A DNA stretch of 64,000 nucleotides from Cellulomonas fimi ATCC 484 (GTDB taxonomy: Bacteria > Actinomycetota > Actinomycetes > Actinomycetales > Cellulomonadaceae), in the NCBI RefSeq assembly GCF_000212695.1, contig NC_015514.1:3224001-3288000 (forward strand). The letters are read 5' to 3'. Shown here piece after piece: positions 5,912 to 49,150 of the stretch. The notes under the pieces are model-generated. The model was not told where the DNA came from, made no database searches, and saw only the letters and a list, made by a program, of their open reading frames with translations. Position 1 is the stretch's first letter, and the number at the start of each line of letters is the position of its first letter. Both the position numbers and the translations under genes were made by a program.

Positions 5912-6238
5912 TCAGTCGCCGTGCACGCGCAGCGGCAGCGTGGCGATGATCGGGTGGTCCTTGTCGATCTCACCCATCTTCGCGGCGCCGCCCGGCGAGC
6001 CGAGGTCGTCGAAGAACTCGACGTTCGCCTTGTAGTACTCGCTCCACTGCTCGGGGACGTCGTCCTCGTAGTAGATCGCCTCGACCGGGCACACCGGCTC
6101 GCACGCCCCGCAGTCGACGCACTCGTCGGGGTGGATGTACAGCGACCGCTTGCCCTCGTAGATGCAGTCCACGGGACATTCCTCGATGCACGCCTTGTCC
6201 TTGACGTCCACACAAGGCTCGGCGATCACATACGTCAC
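5912..6238 (-). CDS. fdxA: 7Fe ferredoxin
   Basis: A 108-residue soluble electron carrier. The cysteine pattern is that of [3Fe-4S][4Fe-4S] ferredoxins: C9, C17 and C50 would hold the 3Fe cluster, and C21, C40, C43 and C46 the 4Fe cluster, with C25 probably free. The C-terminal extension past residue 60 is normal for actinobacterial FdxA. The GTG at 6238 has a GGAGG site 7 nt upstream, and a -10 element lies about 33 bp upstream of the start codon. It is the first gene of the fdxA-dapC unit. Redox partners cannot be read from the sequence. Confidence 0.93.
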   Translation of the reverse strand: MTYVIAEPCVDVKDKACIEECPVDCIYEGKRSLYIHPDECVDCGACEPVCPVEAIYYEDDVPEQWSEYYKANVEFFDDLGSPGGAAKMGEIDKDHPIIATLPLRVHGD

Positions 6239-6269
6239 GGTGCGTCCTCCAACGCGCAGGGGGTCTGCC

Positions 6270-6276
6270 TAGTATC
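6270..6276. promoter_or_regulatory. overlapping divergent -10 elements (fdxA / small gene)
   Basis: TAGTATC on the plus strand gives TAGTAT as a -10 for rightward transcription; its complement GATACT serves as a -10 for fdxA leftward. Near-symmetry of one AT-rich core could drive both directions. On the plus strand an ATG follows after exactly 7 nt. No convincing -35 on either strand. Confidence 0.45.
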
Positions 6277-6282
6277 CCCCAC

Positions 6283-6327
6283 ATGCGACGCGGCGTGACC
6301 TGGTGTCCACGGTGGTGGACGACGTGA
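6283..6327 (+). CDS. possible 14-codon Trp-rich leader peptide
   Basis: An ATG lies 7 nt after TAGTAT, the geometry of a leaderless mRNA. It opens a short frame reading MRRGVTWCPRWWTT and stop, with three Trp codons and one Cys codon in its last eight residues. The stop overlaps a GTG as GTGA at 6324, the probable start of the next gene. This could be a coupling or attenuating leader peptide, or chance in GC-rich DNA. No terminator/antiterminator pair is obvious. Confidence 0.35.
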   Translation: MRRGVTWCPRWWTT

Positions 6328-6560
6328 GCACCGACTGGCGGGAGTTCGTGCCCGGCGAGCGGGTCGTCGTGCGGCGTCGCCGCCCCGACGAGCCCGGCGC
6401 AGGAGAGCCCCGGCTCACCGACGTGCTCGGCGAGGTGCTGCGGTGCGACGACGACGGCCTGACCGTCCGCACCCGCGCGGGCGTCGTCGACGTGCCCGCC
6501 GCCGACGTGTTCCTCGCCAAGCGCGTCCCCCCGCCCCCGCCCCGCCGCGACCGCCGCTGA
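6324..6560 (+). CDS. small conserved actinobacterial protein, unknown function
   Basis: A 78-residue product beginning VSTDWREFVPGERVVVRRR and ending in a Pro/Arg-rich tail (PPPPPRRDRR). The body alternates charged and hydrophobic residues (GEVLRCDDDGLTVRTRAGVV) and looks like a small SH3-like beta-barrel, similar to the N-terminal segment of some actinobacterial GNAT proteins; that resemblance is from memory. GTG at 6324 is preferred because it overlaps the stop of a preceding leader frame (GTGA) and starts the conserved stretch; GTG at 6303 would add seven residues. It diverges from fdxA and converges on the VanW-family gene. No function can be assigned. Confidence 0.6.
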   Translation: MSTDWREFVPGERVVVRRRRPDEPGAGEPRLTDVLGEVLRCDDDGLTVRTRAGVVDVPAADVFLAKRVPPPPPRRDRR

Positions 6561-41847: not shown

Positions 41848-42005
41848 GGAGTACCTCCCCTGGTCGCAGCGGTGCGCCAGGACCCTTGCTACTCCCGTCC
41901 GGGACGGCGCGCCACCGGACGGCGTCCGTCGTCGCAGGTCCGCGGCGGTAGCCCGCCTGTCGGGCAGGAGGTGCCGGCGGGCGCGAGCCCTGCGACCATG
42001 TGCCG

Positions 42006-42632
42006 GTGCCTCAGACCCTCACCCCCGCCGAAGCCTGGTCCGCGCTGCGCGACGGGAACGCCCGGTTCGTCCGCGGCGAGATGGAGCACCCGTCGCAAGG
42101 CATCGACCGCCGGACCGAGGTGTCGACCGCGCAGTACCCGTTCGCCGTGATCTTCGGCTGCTCGGACTCCCGGGTCGCCGCCGAGATCATCTTCGACCAG
42201 GGCCTCGGCGACGTGTTCGTCGTGCGCACCGCCGGCCACGTGCTCGACACGACCGTCATCGGGTCGATCGAGTACGGCGTCGAGGTGCTCGGCGCGTCGC
42301 TCGTCGTCGTCCTCGGTCACGACTCGTGCGGTGCCGTCGCCGCCGCGACCGCCGCGCTCACCGACGGCGAGCTGCCGCGTGGGTTCGTGCGCGCCGTCGT
42401 CGACCGCGTCATCCCGTCGATCGTCAACCTCACGGGCGACGGCGGCATCGGCTCCGTCGACGCCGCGACCCTCGGCCACGAGCACGTGCGGCACACCGTC
42501 CAGATGCTGCAGGGCTACTCGGGGTCGCTCGCGGAGGCGATCGCCGAGGGCCGCTGCGCGATCGTCGGCCTGGAGTACACGCTCGCCGACGGCCAGGTGC
42601 ACCTCACGGAGTCGGTCGGCGACATCGGCTGA
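42006..42632 (+). CDS. beta-class carbonic anhydrase
   Basis: Zn enzyme interconverting CO2 and bicarbonate, 208 residues. Zinc ligands and catalytic dyad are visible: CSDSRV (C52, D54, R56) and GHDSCGAV (H105, C108). The rest fits the bacterial clade with TAGHVLDTTVIGSIEYGVEVLG. GTG at 42006 has GACCAT 6 nt upstream; GTG at 42000 would add two residues and cannot be excluded. It diverges from the lpqY operon and is followed, 67 bp on, by the lipoprotein/peptide cassette, which has its own promoter. Confidence 0.93.
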   Translation: MPQTLTPAEAWSALRDGNARFVRGEMEHPSQGIDRRTEVSTAQYPFAVIFGCSDSRVAAEIIFDQGLGDVFVVRTAGHVLDTTVIGSIEYGVEVLGASLVVVLGHDSCGAVAAATAALTDGELPRGFVRAVVDRVIPSIVNLTGDGGIGSVDAATLGHEHVRHTVQMLQGYSGSLAEAIAEGRCAIVGLEYTLADGQVHLTESVGDIG

Positions 42633-42687
42633 CCCGGACCACGAGGCTCCTCTCCTCAAACCCGTCACACGCGGCCCTGACTTCCGT

Positions 42688-42693
42688 TACGGT
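42688..42693 (+). promoter_or_regulatory. -10 element of leaderless promoter for the peptide/ABC cassette
   Basis: TACGGT followed by exactly 6 nt and the GTG at 42700. There is no ribosome-binding site for that GTG. This fixes the start of the first lipoprotein and suggests the six-gene cassette is an independent transcription unit. Confidence 0.5.
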
Positions 42694-42699
42694 CATGCC

Positions 42700-43383
42700 G
42701 TGCACAGAGGACGATGGCGCGAAACCGCCTCTGAACTGCAGTTCCGGCTCCGGACTCGGACGAATCGCCGCCGCGCGACTCACGTGCCGACGGCGTGGTC
42801 CCTCGTGGGCCTGCTCCTCCTGACGGCGTGCGGTACGGACCACGGCTCCACGAGCGCAGAACCTGCCTCCCAGGCCGAGGCGGTCATCCAGCTCGCCGAG
42901 CAAGCCGAGGTGGGCGCGGAGCAGATGGCGATCCTCGAGGACGGCGACGTCACGTACGACGAGTACGAGACGGCGATGAACCGAGCGTTCGAGTGCATGC
43001 GCACGGCGGGCTTCGCCGTCACCGTCACGGGCACCAACCGACAGAACGGGACCACCGTCCTCGACTTCAGCGTCCAGGGGACGACATCGGACACGGACCT
43101 GGCGACACAGGCTGGGCGCTCACGCCAGGAGGCCTGCTACGTCGAGGAGGCCCGCTTCGTCGATGCCTTCTGGCAGACGGCGTCTGACGAGGTGGTGGCG
43201 TTCGAGGAGCGACGAGCCTCGGCCCTCGAGCCACTGCTGCGCGAATGTCTTGCGTCCGCCGGAGCCGACGTCCCGACGGACGCGAGTTTCGTCGACCTCG
43301 TCCATGTCGCTTCGGACCTGACGAGCAAGAACCGGACCGACGACTGCATCGGTGAGATCGGATTCTCGACGTGGGACGGCTGA
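42700..43383 (+). CDS. unknown lipoprotein 1 of the peptide/ABC cassette
   Basis: A 227-residue probable lipoprotein: an Arg-rich N-terminus, hydrophobic stretch, and lipobox LLLLTAC (Cys44). The exported part is acidic, largely helical, and has four further cysteines (FECMRTAGF, QEACYVEE, LRECLASAG, DDCIGE), probably two disulfides. No known domain is recognised. GTG at 42700 is supported by a TACGGT box 6 nt upstream; a GTG at 42784 would leave a signal without positive charge. The next gene starts inside its 3' end (13-nt overlap). Codon use is somewhat less G/C-biased than in neighbours outside the cassette. Association with the peptide and ABC genes is by position only. Confidence 0.6.
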   Translation: MHRGRWRETASELQFRLRTRTNRRRATHVPTAWSLVGLLLLTACGTDHGSTSAEPASQAEAVIQLAEQAEVGAEQMAILEDGDVTYDEYETAMNRAFECMRTAGFAVTVTGTNRQNGTTVLDFSVQGTTSDTDLATQAGRSRQEACYVEEARFVDAFWQTASDEVVAFEERRASALEPLLRECLASAGADVPTDASFVDLVHVASDLTSKNRTDDCIGEIGFSTWDG

Positions 43384-43820
43384 CGGCGTCGGTTCCGCGT
43401 CGCCGGCGGGTCGCACACGGCGTCGCGACGTTGGGGCTCGCGTCCCTGCTCCTCGGGTGCGGCGCTGACCCGTTGGCAGGTCTTGGAGGCCCGGGCCTGC
43501 GCACCCGATGCGCCGAAGGACTGCCGGAGCCGACCGGCACCGCGGTCCACGCCTGCAACGACGGTGAAGGGCGGGGCACCTTCCCCGTCGAGCTCAAGGC
43601 TGGCCGGTACGACCTGGTCGTTCTCTGCGACGGAGCCGACGACGTCACCGTCGTCCTGGACCCCGTCGCTCCGGCGTCGGAGCCAGCGGTCGCCGAGTGC
43701 AGCAGCGGCCCTGACCCGTCGGCCGTCGAGATCGGCACGCTCACGGACGACGAAGTCACCGAGCTGACGCTGACACAGCACGGTGAGGGCGATATCGCCT
43801 TCTTCATCGTCCGCCGATAA
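43371..43820 (+). CDS. unknown lipoprotein 2 of the peptide/ABC cassette
   Basis: A 149-residue probable lipoprotein: RRRR near residues 10-13, hydrophobic core and lipobox ASLLLGC (Cys30). The mature part is small, with Cys in RTRCAEG, HACNDG, VLCDG and AECSSG, and ends in a beta-rich stretch (DIAFFIVRR), suggesting a compact disulfide-bonded beta domain. GTG at 43371 overlaps the upstream gene by 13 nt, implying coupled translation. It resembles nothing I can name. An accessory or immunity role next to the secreted peptide is only a suggestion. Confidence 0.6.
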   Translation: MGRLTASVPRRRRVAHGVATLGLASLLLGCGADPLAGLGGPGLRTRCAEGLPEPTGTAVHACNDGEGRGTFPVELKAGRYDLVVLCDGADDVTVVLDPVAPASEPAVAECSSGPDPSAVEIGTLTDDEVTELTLTQHGEGDIAFFIVRR

Positions 43821-43921
43821 GGCATCGCCACGATGGCCGACGGGCCGAGCGCATGGACGTCCGCCTACTGCCCACAGCCGTCGACGGTGGTTTCCGATCA
43901 CCACAACGAGACAGGAGACGC

Positions 43922-44233
43922 ATGAACCAGCGCAGAACGGCCTTGACCGCCCTCGTGGCGGCGGTCGCCCTGGTAGCCCCGGCCAGCGCAGCCGCCGCCG
44001 AGTACCAGGACTGAACATGGTCCAACGGCTGCGTCAGTCGGTATGAGTGGACGTTCACGTACGACTGGGCGCAGACCGAGGACCGCAACAACAAGTGCAC
44101 CCTCGTCAGCGCGTTGGTCTACTTCAACCCTCCCGGCACCTCGACGACTCTGTCGACTCCGTGGACCCACAGCGGCGTCCTCGCCCGCGCGTCGGGCAAG
44201 GAGATGCGAGACCACGTGCACGGCGCGAACTGA
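43922..44233 (+). pseudogene. short secreted peptide gene with in-frame UGA
   Basis: AGGAGACGC then ATG gives a strong start. Codons 1-30 encode a signal peptide (RRTALTALVAAVALVAPASA) followed by AAAEYQD; codon 31 is TGA (44012-44014); the same frame then continues for 72 codons to a TGA at 44231. In that part 65 of 72 codons end in G or C, so it looks like real coding sequence. One base change (TGG to TGA) would account for the stop, giving QDWTWSNG. The mature peptide would have about 77 residues, be Trp/Tyr-rich and hold two cysteines (codons 37 and 59). GVLARAS recalls GVWAKAT of lactococcin 972 (from memory, weak). Either a broken gene, a read-through gene or a sequencing error. Confidence 0.6.
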
Positions 44234-44348
44234 GGGTCGCCGATGATGCGCCAGCCCGCTCGTTGGCGGAGCGGGCGCATCACCGGCCGCCTTGCCCGTC
44301 GAAGGGCTCATGGGACACGAAGGCCATGCAGGGACCGGGAGGCATGCG

Positions 44349-45410
44349 GTGGTGAGGTCACGGACGGCGTCGGGCCGCGGGGCGACGCCGGTCTGGTTGG
44401 TACTGGCGACCTTGCTCCTGGCTCCCTTGCTGGTGGTGGGGGGCTGGTGGTTCGTCGCGGCGACGGAGAACCCGACAGCCGCGGCCGCACTCGTCAAGCC
44501 CGTGATCGTTCCCGTCGAGCTCCACGACGTACGCGCCGAGACGACAGTCGGCGTTCGGGTCGACGACGTCGCGGGCCGGGAGGCCGCCGTCGCCGTGGCA
44601 GGCACCGTGACCGGGGAGACGCGCCCCGGCCAGGAGCTCGACGACGGCGTCGAGGTCCTCCGCGTCGACGACCATCCGGTCCGCGCCATGGTTTCGGACG
44701 CACCACTGTGGCGGGTGCTCCGTCCGGGAGACCAGGGCGAGGACGTCGCTCGGCTTCAACGGTTCCTCACGGGACTCGGACTTTACGACGGCCGCGCCGA
44801 CGGTCGCTTCGGAAGCGCTCTGGGTCGCGCCGTCGCCAGGTTCAACGCCGACGCAGGACGCGGTAGCACCAAGACGGACTTCGACCCGGGTACGGTCGTC
44901 TGGGTCGGGCCGGACCCCCTGGAGGTCGCCGAGCCACTCGTGTCCGTCGGGTCGTCCGTCGCGCCTGGCACACCAATCGTCCGCGGGCCCGCTCGACCTG
45001 GCGTTGTCGTCGTCGCCGAGCCGCAAGGCGGGATCGGCGCGGTCGGGCGCTTCGGCGCCGCGGCGACACTCTCCGTCGGTCACGCCGCCGTCGCGTACGT
45101 CCCTGGATCCGGGGCCATCAGCGCGCCCGAGGCGGTGGACGCGATCCGCGCAGCACTTGCGCCGGCGGTCGAAGGAACGGCGCGCGTGACAGCGGCTGAA
45201 CCCGTGACGGTCGTGATGGTGCCGGCGTCGGCGCTGGTCCAGGGTCTCGACGGCTCGCTCTGCGTCTATGAGGACCCGGACTCAGCGCCCATCGCGGTCG
45301 AGCCCGTGGGTGGCGGGGTCGGGTGGACCCACCTGCCGGCGACCGTGCGAATCGATCGCGTGCTCGCGAACCCCGGTCGAGCATTGCCGGACAGCCCGTG
45401 CACCTCGTAG
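44349..45410 (+). CDS. membrane-anchored adaptor with peptidoglycan-binding repeat
   Basis: A 353-residue protein: short basic N-terminus, one membrane helix (about residues 14-36), then an extracytoplasmic region. Residues about 124-170 match a PG_binding_1 repeat (LRPGDQGEDVARLQRFLTGL, GLYDGRADGRFG). The flanking beta-rich parts resemble HlyD/MacA-type adaptors of Gram-positive efflux systems, in which a PG-binding repeat replaces the coiled-coil hairpin. GTG at 44349 has GGGAGG 6 nt upstream; an ATG at 44310 is possible. The 3' end overlaps the ATPase gene by 13 nt. It probably links the ABC permease to the cell wall. Confidence 0.75.
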   Translation: MVRSRTASGRGATPVWLVLATLLLAPLLVVGGWWFVAATENPTAAAALVKPVIVPVELHDVRAETTVGVRVDDVAGREAAVAVAGTVTGETRPGQELDDGVEVLRVDDHPVRAMVSDAPLWRVLRPGDQGEDVARLQRFLTGLGLYDGRADGRFGSALGRAVARFNADAGRGSTKTDFDPGTVVWVGPDPLEVAEPLVSVGSSVAPGTPIVRGPARPGVVVVAEPQGGIGAVGRFGAAATLSVGHAAVAYVPGSGAISAPEAVDAIRAALAPAVEGTARVTAAEPVTVVMVPASALVQGLDGSLCVYEDPDSAPIAVEPVGGGVGWTHLPATVRIDRVLANPGRALPDSPCTS

Positions 45411-46030
45411 CCGACGACGTCTACGTCCGCTACCGCAAGACGAGCCGAGACGTACTAGCAGGAGCGTGCCTGCGCGTTGCGCAGGGGGAGACCATCGCCG
45501 TCCTCGGGCCGTCAGGTTCCGGCAAGTCGACTCTTCTCTCCGTGCTCGGGGGCCTCGTAGCGCCGACACGCGGAAGCGCCCACCTGGATCACGCGGAACG
45601 ACAGTCCCTGCGGGACGTCACGGCGTGGGTGCTCCAGACCGTCAACGTGCTCCCTGAGCGGTCCGCGCTGGACAACGCAGCCATCGCCGGCCTCACGCGA
45701 GGCATGAGCCACGCCGCAGCCAGGAAAGAGGCCCAGGTACGGCTGTCGGACGTCGGCCTCGGGGATCGCCTCGACGACGCGGCCAAGGTCCTGTCCGGCG
45801 GGGAGCTGCAGCGCGTCGTCATCGCGCGCGCCCTCATGTCGGCGCGACCATTCATCCTCGCCGACGAACCGACAGGGCAGCTCGACCGCGCGACCTCCGA
45901 CATCGTCCTGGACGCACTCTTCCACTCTGCCGCAGGAGCAGCGGTGGTGGTCGTGACGCACGACCGAGCCGTAGCCGAGCGATGCAACCGGGTGGTCCGG
46001 ATCCACGACGGCGTGGTCAGGCCCGCGTGA
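45398..46030 (+). CDS. ABC ATPase of the peptide cassette (MacB/LolD type)
   Basis: A 210-residue ATPase of the class that pairs with FtsX-like permeases. Walker A GPSGSGKSTLLSVLGGL (near residue 38), Q-loop in AWVLQTVNVLP, signature LSGGELQRVVIARALMS (near 131), Walker B FILADEPTGQLD and H-loop VVVVTHDRAVAERC. GTG at 45398 lies inside the adaptor gene, and the stop overlaps the permease GTG as GTGA. It energises the neighbouring permease and adaptor, probably moving a small peptide or lipophilic molecule outward or out of the membrane. Confidence 0.88.
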   Translation: MHLVADDVYVRYRKTSRDVLAGACLRVAQGETIAVLGPSGSGKSTLLSVLGGLVAPTRGSAHLDHAERQSLRDVTAWVLQTVNVLPERSALDNAAIAGLTRGMSHAAARKEAQVRLSDVGLGDRLDDAAKVLSGGELQRVVIARALMSARPFILADEPTGQLDRATSDIVLDALFHSAAGAAVVVVTHDRAVAERCNRVVRIHDGVVRPA

Positions 46031-47181
46031 GGAACGCTCAGGACGTGATGTCGACGACATCGGCCCCTCGTTCGCGCACGTCCCAGCAGTGGCGCGCGCG
46101 CGCCTCGCTCCGCGAGGGGTTGACGAACTTCTGGCAGGCCCTGCTGCTCGGACCCCTGCTCGTCACCCTCACGACGCTGGTCGTGGCGGCAACACTCGTG
46201 ACCGACGCAGTGACAGCGGCGCGCGTCGTCCGGGCCGAGCAGGAGTACCTCGGCGCGGGAGGCGACCTGCTCGTCGCCCAGCGGCCCAACGAGGTGCCCA
46301 TCGACGTCGCGAGATGTGTGGCCCTCAAGAGACTTGCCGGAGTCCGCGAGGCAGCCGCGGTCTCAGTCCGTCCGAGCGCAGCGCGAGTCGTCGGCCGGCC
46401 TGAGAGCCAGCAGACCCTCGTGCTCGCGACCGCCGGAGCTCTCGACCTGCTGAACGCGCCTTCCGTCGGAGCGCACGAGGTCCTGGCTTCCCAGACGATC
46501 GCGGACCGGTGGCAGTGGGCGCCGGGGTCGCACCTGCAACTCGCCCCGCTCGACGACGCTGACCTCGCCGTACCGCCCGGGGTGCTGACGGTGACGGCCA
46601 CCGCGGACCTTGCGCTCCTCTCCGAAGGAGCATCGACGGGTCTGCTGCTGGTTCGAGCGCCGACCGGAACCGCCGACGCCTGCTTCGTCCGCATCGAACC
46701 TCAGTACCGAGAGGACCTCCGCGCGTCCATGCCTGCTGCCCTTGGTGCGCGCGACGGAGCGGGCGTCACAGTGTCCGACCGACTCCCCGCGGGCGCGGCA
46801 GCAGCCGATCCTGCCGCAGCGTTCGACACGAGGACCACACGATGGGCTCCACCGTTCGGCGGTACGGCCGTGGGGCTCTTGTGGTTGGTCGTCGCGTGGA
46901 CACGCCGAGGGCGGGCGGCGATGTACGCGTCGATCGGAGTGCCGTACAGCGGGGGTGTGCTCCTGCGGTGGACCGAGGGAGCCGCCGTCGCGGTGCTCGG
47001 ATGCCTCTGGGGCGCCGCGTGGGCTGTCACAGCGTCGGTCTGCCTCCTGGAGGTCCCCGCCGCGCTCGCGGTGTCGCTCTCGGCGCGAGGTGGCGCCAGT
47101 GCACTCTGCGTCGCGCTGACCATGGTGCTCCTCGTCGGACTATGGCGCCCGCCGACCCTCGCGGCGCTCAAGGATCGGTGA
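46027..47181 (+). CDS. FtsX-like ABC permease of the peptide cassette
   Basis: A 384-residue MacB/FtsX-type permease: membrane helix at about residues 39-63 (LLGPLLVTLTTLVVAATLV), a large extracytoplasmic domain (about 65-270) with two cysteines, then three helices in the last 110 residues. GTG at 46027 overlaps the ATPase stop (GTGA); ATG at 46048 is an alternative. This is the mechanotransmission layout of MacB-class systems rather than a pore-type exporter. It is the last gene of the cassette and converges on the DUF2087 gene 134 bp away. Confidence 0.8.
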   Translation: MRNAQDVMSTTSAPRSRTSQQWRARASLREGLTNFWQALLLGPLLVTLTTLVVAATLVTDAVTAARVVRAEQEYLGAGGDLLVAQRPNEVPIDVARCVALKRLAGVREAAAVSVRPSAARVVGRPESQQTLVLATAGALDLLNAPSVGAHEVLASQTIADRWQWAPGSHLQLAPLDDADLAVPPGVLTVTATADLALLSEGASTGLLLVRAPTGTADACFVRIEPQYREDLRASMPAALGARDGAGVTVSDRLPAGAAAADPAAAFDTRTTRWAPPFGGTAVGLLWLVVAWTRRGRAAMYASIGVPYSGGVLLRWTEGAAVAVLGCLWGAAWAVTASVCLLEVPAALAVSLSARGGASALCVALTMVLLVGLWRPPTLAALKDR

Positions 47182-47315
47182 CCGGCGCGCCGCCGCCCAC
47201 TCGCAGCATGCCCGGGGGCGACGTCGCGGGGTTCGTCACCGGCGTCGCACTGGTGAGCGACCTTCGCATCCTCGTGGTACACCGCTGAGCCCTCGGGCGA
47301 TGGGCCGATCGGTGG

Positions 47316-47669
47316 TCAGAGCCAGGAGTCCTCGGGGCTGGGGCGGGCGCCCGGCTCGTCGTCGTGGATCGTCGGGCGTTCGCGCCAGTACTGGCTTCCG
47401 TCCTGCCGTCGGCCGACGAGCCCGGCCTCGACGAGGTCGCGGCGCAGGCGGACCGGGTCGGCGGTGACCTCCGCGAGGCGCGCGGTGAACGCGCGCTCCT
47501 CGGCGGCCTCGCCGGGGGCGAGCAGGCGCGAGACGAGGTGCTCGAGGAGCATGAGCCGGTCGTCCTGACGGCGCGGCGTGCGCACCAGCCGGCCGTTCTC
47601 GAGGAACCGCTCGGCCGGGCAGACGCTGACGTCAGCGGCGGAGCGTGGGTCGTGCGCGACGGCGTCCAT
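47316..47669 (-). CDS. DUF2087 protein, probable winged-helix regulator
   Basis: A 117-residue protein whose middle (about residues 30-95) matches DUF2087: [46 protein letters not shown] and a C-terminal [11 protein letters not shown]2087 occurs as a C-terminal module of ArsR-like regulators and alone. ATG at 47669 is used; upstream in-frame codons are antisense to fumC leader DNA. It diverges from fumC (53 bp between starts), so it could regulate fumC or be only a neighbour. Confidence 0.75.
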
Positions 47670-47722
47670 GTGGTCATCGTCACCCCACCGGCCCCCGGTT
47701 GTCGTGGGGCAGGATGGACGGC

Positions 47723-49150
47723 ATGACTTCCGCACCTGTCACGGGCACGACGACGTCGCCCGAGTTCCGGATCGAGCACGACACGATGGGCGAGGTCCGC
47801 GTCCCCGCGGCGGCCCTGTACCGCGCGCAGACGCAGCGGGCGGTGGAGAACTTCCCGATCTCCGGCAGCACGCTCGAGCGCGGGCACATCGAGGCGCTCG
47901 CCCGCATCAAGAAGGCCGCTGCCCGGGCGAACGCCGAGCTGGGCGTGCTCGAGCAGGACGTGGCCGACGCGATCGTCAGCGCCGCCGACGAGGTCGCGTC
48001 CGGCGTGCACGACGCGCACTTCCCCGTGGACGTGTACCAGACGGGCTCGGGCACGAGCTCGAACATGAACACCAACGAGGTGCTCGCGACCCTCGCCACG
48101 CGGGTCCTGGGGCGCGACGTGCACCCGAACGACCACGTCAACGCGTCGCAGTCGTCGAACGACGTGTTCCCGACGTCGGTGCACGTGGCGGCCACCGCGG
48201 GCGTCGTGCGCGACCTGGTCCCGGCGCTGGAGCACCTGGCCGCGGCGCTGCAGGAGAAGGCCGACGCGTGGGCGACGGTCGTGAAGTCGGGCCGCACGCA
48301 CCTCATGGACGCGACGCCGGTCACGCTCGGCCAGGAGTTCGGCGGGTACGCCGCGGCGATCCGGTACGGCGTCGAGCGCGTGCAGGCGGCCCTCCCCCGC
48401 GCGGCCGAGGTGCCCCTGGGTGGCACCGCCGTGGGCACGGGCATCAACACCCCGGCGGGCTTCCCGCAGCGCGTCATCGCGCTGCTGCGCGAGGACACCG
48501 GGCTGCCGCTGACGGAGGCGCGCGACCACTTCGAGGCGCAGTCGTCGCGCGACGGGCTCGTCGAGCTGTCCGGCGCGCTGCGCACCATCGCGGTGAGCCT
48601 GACGAAGATCTGCAACGACCTGCGCTGGATGGGGTCCGGCCCGAACACGGGACTCGGCGAGATCGCGATCCCCGACCTGCAGCCCGGGTCGTCGATCATG
48701 CCCGGCAAGGTCAACCCCGTGATCCCCGAGGCGGTGCTCATGGTCGGCGCGCGGGTCGTCGGCAACGACGCCACCGTCGCGTGGGCCGGCGCGTCGGGCT
48801 CGTTCGAGCTCAACGTGCAGATCCCCGTCATCGCGTCCGCGGTGCTCGAGTCGGTCCGGCTGCTCGCCAACGCGAGCCGCGTGCTCGCGGACAAGACCGT
48901 CGCGGGGCTCGTCGCGAACGAGGAGCGCGCGCGGGCCTTCGCCGAGTCGTCGCCGTCGATCGTCACGCCGCTCAACCGCGTCATCGGCTACGAGGCCGCC
49001 GCGAAGATCGCCAAGCACGCCGTCAAGCAGGGCGTCACGATCCGCCAGGCCGTCGTCGACCTCGGCTACGTCGAGCGCGGCGAGGTCACCGAGGAGCAGC
49101 TCGACGCGGCCCTCGACGTGCTGAGCATGACGCGCCCGCCGCAGGCCTGA
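47723..49150 (+). CDS. fumC: class II fumarate hydratase
   Basis: Iron-independent fumarase, fumarate to L-malate, TCA cycle; 475 residues. Superfamily signature [16 protein letters not shown] (near residue 325), active-site segments [26 protein letters not shown] and [23 protein letters not shown] at 47723 starts [20 protein letters not shown]; an ATG at 47714 is also in frame. CAGGAT lies 7 nt upstream. A hairpin follows 20 nt after the stop. Confidence 0.96.

Follow-up and report, generated by a model that had tools for sequence, protein, structure and literature searches.

What is the function of a cassette that encodes two lipoproteins, a small secreted protein, an adaptor, an ATP-binding cassette (ABC) ATPase and a permease, and why is one of its genes interrupted in the soil bacterium Cellulomonas fimi ATCC 484? 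The cassette occupies positions 42700 to 47181 of the window, i.e., the whole stretch of 64,000 nucleotides of contig NC_015514.1 analyzed here, and its genes are arranged in the order given above, all on the forward strand. The gene for the small secreted protein (hereafter the peptide) is broken by a stop codon after the signal peptide, and the protective genes are open. The system is probably a bacteriocin cassette of lactococcin-972-like type, with lipoprotein 1 as the immunity protein and the adaptor, ATPase and permease (the trio) as a removal machine resembling MacB and YknXYZ.

The first piece of the peptide gene (43922..44014, forward strand) begins at ATG 43922, with AGGAG 4 nucleotides upstream, and its 30 codons specify a signal peptide and a few residues before an in-frame TGA (44012..44014, forward strand). 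The same frame is then open for 72 codons (44015-44230), and this second piece (44015..44233, forward strand), which includes two Cys residues, was assigned by homology and family profile. Searched alone, the second piece shares 55.6% identity over 63 residues with an intact secreted protein of 105 residues at the matching place in locus L018 (C. phragmiteti NBRC 110785, 6147-6464) and matches the peptide family profile (E 1.4e-14), whereas it has no match in Pfam or NCBIfam. The "short secreted peptide" of 30 residues reported in the first-pass annotation thus covers no more than the signal-peptide portion at the start of a longer gene. Since the frame and the family features are preserved on both sides, the stop is either recent or an artefact. 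The same preservation speaks for a sequencing or assembly error, with a peptide gene intact in the living strain and a complete bacteriocin system; such an error is nevertheless improbable, given a genome assembled as a single contig of 4.27 Mb and 100% complete, and a decay or absence of the peptide that recurs in L019 and L052. In L019 (8792-8947), the secreted-protein gene is cut to 51 residues, with about 50 central residues gone in frame and the lipoproteins and trio kept. L052 contains both lipoproteins and no trio, and its best peptide match has an E value of 0.017. Open secreted proteins number 13 in the 12 other loci compared below, L021 having two, and only that of L019 is shortened; these proteins were chosen as open frames, so that broken copies elsewhere are missed unless they resemble L019. 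The protein of intact relatives has roughly 70 residues, usually two Cys and a predicted all-beta fold. Signal peptides and lipoboxes were assigned by pattern scans, and the Sec-type signal accordingly denotes a hydrophobic N-terminus found without SignalP, followed by 64-85 residues after the chosen cut in 19 proteins.

Do the remaining genes belong together with the peptide? Twelve of 98 related genomes, members of a single genus, encode the permease, and the comparison set besides the window comprises 12 permease loci in 11 genomes (two loci in G043). Every one of these 12 loci has neighboring adaptor and ATPase genes and a lipoprotein 1 gene next to which a small secreted protein is encoded. 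The co-occurrence with the trio expected in the first-pass annotation therefore holds for the peptide and lipoprotein 1, but lipoprotein 2 is matched at just six of the 12. A lipoprotein 1 search of the 98 genomes yielded 14 loci at E<1e-50, of which 13 are trio loci and the exception is L052. Within the 64-kb window, the profiles of lipoprotein 1, peptide, adaptor and permease have one match each, every one inside the cassette; the adaptor, permease and lipoprotein 1 profiles include the window's own sequence and the peptide profile excludes it, and this confinement of matches to the cassette is more than chance. The complete set extends to a different family, in a locus (L053/L069) whose source is named as an Acidothermus metagenome-assembled genome (MAG).

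The arrangement of these genes varies. Because peptide and lipoprotein 1 are divergent from the trio in five of the 12 loci (L014, L015, L016, L019, and L025), a one-operon layout is not general, and, with lipoprotein 2 also unmatched at half of the loci, the six-gene unit with its own promoter proposed from the window is not the conserved state. The peptide gene is mostly located directly upstream of lipoprotein 1, with the exceptions of the window, L018 and the second peptide of L021, and the two genes overlap by 4 nucleotides in L015, L016, L025, and L021. Mixed gene orientation and the patchy occurrence of lipoprotein 2 are what unrelated genes standing side by side by accident would display. 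This explanation is exceedingly improbable; chance adjacency of peptide, lipoprotein 1 and trio is refuted by their co-occurrence at 12 of 12 other loci in differing genomic places.

Which of these genes is the partner of the peptide? Lipoprotein 1 (42700..43383, forward strand) is the proposed cognate immunity lipoprotein, and its lipobox Cys and four further Cys are invariant in 23 of 23 aligned sequences (the window and 22 relatives). Across 13 loci, pairwise identities of the peptide and lipoprotein 1 correlate with r 0.83. Controlling for permease, adaptor or ATPase leaves a partial correlation of 0.66-0.68 between the two (0 of 2000 label permutations each), as against -0.08 to -0.20 between the peptide and a trio gene after control for lipoprotein 1; after removal of the near-duplicate L016 (12 loci), the former is 0.46-0.50 (0 of 2000 each). 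In these tests, L019 with its shortened peptide was excluded, L021 was represented by one of its two peptides and the window by the second piece only. Such co-variation would be expected from a binding pair, toxin and immunity protein or ligand and receptor alike. Pheromone and surface receptor, as the peptide and lipoprotein 1 would be in a signaling system whose trio exports or removes the signal, would thus co-diverge too, and multiple peptide and lipoprotein copies per locus (L060 and L072) fit private signals. Signaling is nonetheless unlikely: the peptides resemble bacteriocins by predicted fold and by slot, and decay that strikes the peptide but spares the lipoproteins (the window, L019, and L052) is expected of immunity. 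Lipoprotein 2 (43371..43820, forward strand), which also has a lipobox, would be accessory; besides the genus trio loci mentioned above, it is matched in L052 and L053, and its score against DUF6023 (17.3 bits) is below the 26.8-bit cut-off. Above-cut-off matches to Pfam or NCBIfam families are absent from both lipoproteins, both pieces of the peptide and the permease.

Is the peptide a lactococcin 972? PF09683 is matched by neither the second piece nor 10 intact relatives at E values up to 10, the window genome contains no PF09683 match, and hhalign of the peptide family with six PF09683-type peptides from these genomes gives a probability of 0.1%. Furthermore, no cassette protein matches DUF1430, and a different gene set adjoins the peptide. 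Since the peptide fails these sequence tests of membership, it is not assigned to the lactococcin 972 family, with which it has no sequence or profile similarity, although it may work like a lactococcin 972. As in the lactococcin 972 clusters (Lcn972, streptococcin B, mediterrocin, and Formosin D), a small Sec-type secreted protein is encoded near ABC genes of an immunity type; the best structural neighbor of the predicted all-beta fold is 9hkj (PDB title Formosin D); and true PF09683 genes occupy the peptide slot in two of 20 adaptor loci, L077 (4816-5127, E 1.3e-12) and L087 (5073-5375, E 1.1e-8). In both loci, the lactococcin 972 gene precedes lipoprotein, adaptor, ATPase and permease, with no classical large membrane protein in that place. 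The lactococcin 972 pointer of the first-pass annotation is supported by this shared slot. By contrast, the 98 genomes have five further PF09683 genes, which occur without this lipoprotein and adaptor, and the lipoprotein 1 profile has no match at these five loci; two of them (L101 and L103) follow the classical-cluster layout, with an adjoining protein of about 700 residues whose DUF1430 matches (E 0.068 and 0.0011) are below cut-off. Classical lactococcin 972 clusters, as described in PMC12345188, encode a seven-transmembrane DUF1430 protein and an ATPase, unlike the lipoprotein, wall-binding adaptor, ATPase and short permease of the cassette. The retention of immunity genes after loss of the functional peptide has a counterpart in some pneumococcal strains, in which the scb locus lacks a functional peptide and immunity genes are present (PMC11796350). 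The same paper states that the function of immunity and transport gene products has been verified in none of the lactococcin 972 loci. In the PMC literature searched, a scope outside which most subscription papers and preprints lie, no description of the cassette gene set was found, and the intact cassettes of relatives appear to belong to an undescribed branch of lactococcin-972-type bacteriocin systems.

What would the trio do for such a system? The adaptor (44349..45410, forward strand; earlier in-frame starts 44292 and 44310 are possible) has an N-terminal hydrophobic segment and a PG_binding_1 domain (PF01471, E 2.7e-7); it matches peptidoglycan-binding models only, and no match to the HlyD/MacA family was found. 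The ATPase (45398..46030, forward strand) belongs to the LolD/YbbA/MacB group, with LolD, YbbA and MacB among its best relatives. The permease (46048..47181, forward strand, by alignment; starts 46027 or 46048) has, as judged by eye, a single hydrophobic segment at the N-terminus and three at the C-terminus, separated by a large external part in which two Cys are invariant, and a C-terminal LKD/ER motif is conserved in the alignment. The window permease has no match to PF12704 (MacB_PCD), a related permease in L077 matches MacB_PCD below cut-off (E 4.6e-4), and the permease profile has no sequence match to a solved YknZ or MacB. The composition read in the first-pass annotation, namely lipoproteins, a peptidoglycan-binding adaptor, an ATPase and a permease on one strand, is consequently confirmed.

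In nisin immunity, the protective labor is divided between the surface lipoprotein NisI and the ABC pump NisFEG, a pairing that the cassette resembles; lipoprotein 1, however, matches no Pfam or NCBIfam family, and NisFEG is not known as a MacB-type system with an adaptor. Both nisI and nisFEG are named in PMC4055356. A likeness in components, a separate ATPase, a MacB-like permease and an adaptor, is offered by YknWXYZ of Bacillus, which PMC4887032 describes as an efflux pump protecting cells from the endogenous peptide toxin SDP. The cassette differs from it in the PG_binding_1 domain of its adaptor, in its Cys-rich lipoprotein as constant partner and in the predicted all-beta fold of its peptide.

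We infer killing, binding and the direction of export as follows. The peptide of intact relatives would be exported via the Sec route and, by analogy with lactococcin 972, would target the cell wall of related bacteria. With its lipobox Cys as an external anchor and the four further Cys, lipoprotein 1 would bind its cognate peptide as an immunity protein, and the trio, as a MacB/YknXYZ-like machine with an adaptor reaching into peptidoglycan, would remove peptide that is bound or close to the membrane by moving it out through the wall. The window genome would then have lost the toxin and kept immunity. In the current view, MacB-type machines take up their substrates on the outer side of the membrane, and this, together with the wall-binding domain of the adaptor, also suits a secretion or maturation machine in place of an immunity pump, to which Sec delivers the peptide at the outer membrane face for extrusion through the wall. 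We regard this role as rather unlikely, as the trio is still open in the window despite loss of the peptide and likewise in L019. The toxin/immunity proposal of the first-pass annotation is hence supported by the constant company of peptide, lipoprotein 1 and trio, by peptide divergence that tracks lipoprotein 1 and by PF09683 peptides in the same slot.

How is the cassette placed and expressed? It is flanked on the left by a carbonic anhydrase gene (42000..42632, forward strand; PF00484, E 6.7e-36) and on the right by a class II fumarase gene (47645..49150, forward strand; PF00206, E 3.9e-97, and PF10415), and a DUF2087 protein gene (PF09860; 47316-47735, reverse strand) sits between cassette and fumarase. 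The carbonic anhydrase and fumarase genes share a contig in 52 genus genomes; in 38 of these they are separated by less than 600 bp, as against 5.0 kb in the window, and the 11 other carriers hold the cassette on a different contig or far away from carbonic anhydrase; for these reasons, the cassette is taken as a chromosomal insertion between the two genes. In 13 of the 52 genomes, other DNA of 3.4-5.2 kb fills the gap; five carbonic anhydrase-fumarase loci, four from these 13 genomes and that of G019 (1.07 kb), were examined and contain no match to lipoprotein 1, lipoprotein 2, adaptor, permease or peptide. The overlaps assigned earlier to most junctions were borne out in part: lipoproteins 1 and 2 overlap by 13 nucleotides, as do adaptor and ATPase, and the GTGA overlap of ATPase and permease exists only if the permease starts at 46027, but the peptide gene is bordered by gaps of 101 nucleotides upstream and 115 nucleotides from 44233 to GTG 44349. 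The start codon of lipoprotein 1 is ambiguous (GTG 42700 or 42784). The hexamer TACGGT (42688..42693, forward strand), correctly located by the first-pass annotation 6 nucleotides upstream of GTG 42700, is -10-like and may be a leaderless promoter; TANNNT stands 5-8 nucleotides upstream of three of 1945 forward-strand ATG, GTG or TTG codons in the window and of one of 1198 GTG codons, namely GTG 42700. A consensus scan of 42600-47400 revealed no sigma-70-type promoter. A strong hairpin directly 3' of the peptide frame (44233..44293, forward strand; -43.6 kcal/mol, z -3.9) may be an attenuator or an mRNA 3' end, with equivalents in L018 (z -8.6) and L021 (z -5.0), but the L014 peptide frame has no such structure behind it (z -0.2). 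An effect of the hairpin in allowing excess synthesis of the peptide is conjecture.

How far does the family extend? Lipoprotein 1 is matched at E<=0.001 in 29 of the 98 relatives, 13 genomes having the strong matches; among the 16 with a weaker match, neighborhoods were examined for nine. Adaptor, ATPase and permease are all present at eight of the 13 weaker loci (L054-L066). Among the 20 adaptor-seeded loci, 15 have a lipoprotein 1 match at E<=0.001, a count that includes five with an earlier lipoprotein 1 hit (L079, L083, L089, L090, and L091) and 10 of the other 15, and about 12 also have a plausible small secreted protein by our own reading of the scan. Several arrangements are elaborate. 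L060 (1020-6466) is an array of peptide-lipoprotein-peptide-lipoprotein-lipoprotein followed by adaptor, ATPase and permease; L072, an Acidimicrobiia MAG, has five lipoprotein-1-type genes within 8.3 kb, small secreted proteins and one adaptor; and G080 (L059 and L089-L091), a 2.9-Mb genome of another family, has an expansion to nine lipoprotein-1-type and nine adaptor matches. The window genome itself contains a second adaptor locus, L074 (G000:C1:109000-124000), whose lipoprotein-1-type gene (E 2e-7) encodes four Cys past the lipobox and in which the scan found no small secreted gene. Tentatively, the cassette could exemplify an undescribed warfare platform in several actinobacterial families, in which a constant chassis of surface lipoprotein (an anchor Cys and four conserved Cys), wall-binding adaptor, ATPase and MacB-like permease serves a range of small secreted toxins that share no sequence similarity and include true lactococcin 972, and the lipoprotein co-evolves with the toxin and hands it to a wall-anchored pump, with multi-copy genomes such as G080 and some immunity-only strains. 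Weighing against wide spread, only six of 394 genomes in a class-wide sample, the window genome included and at most eight candidates scored per genome, have a lipoprotein 1 match at E<=0.001, and for this reason the close form of the cassette is rare.

These cassettes would extend the lactococcin-972-type bacteriocins by a branch unrelated in sequence and by a new type of protective machinery. The lipoprotein that co-varies with the toxin is a concrete, testable candidate for the immunity function, and a lipoprotein 1 or adaptor profile may be used to search for small secreted toxins missed by the family models applied here.
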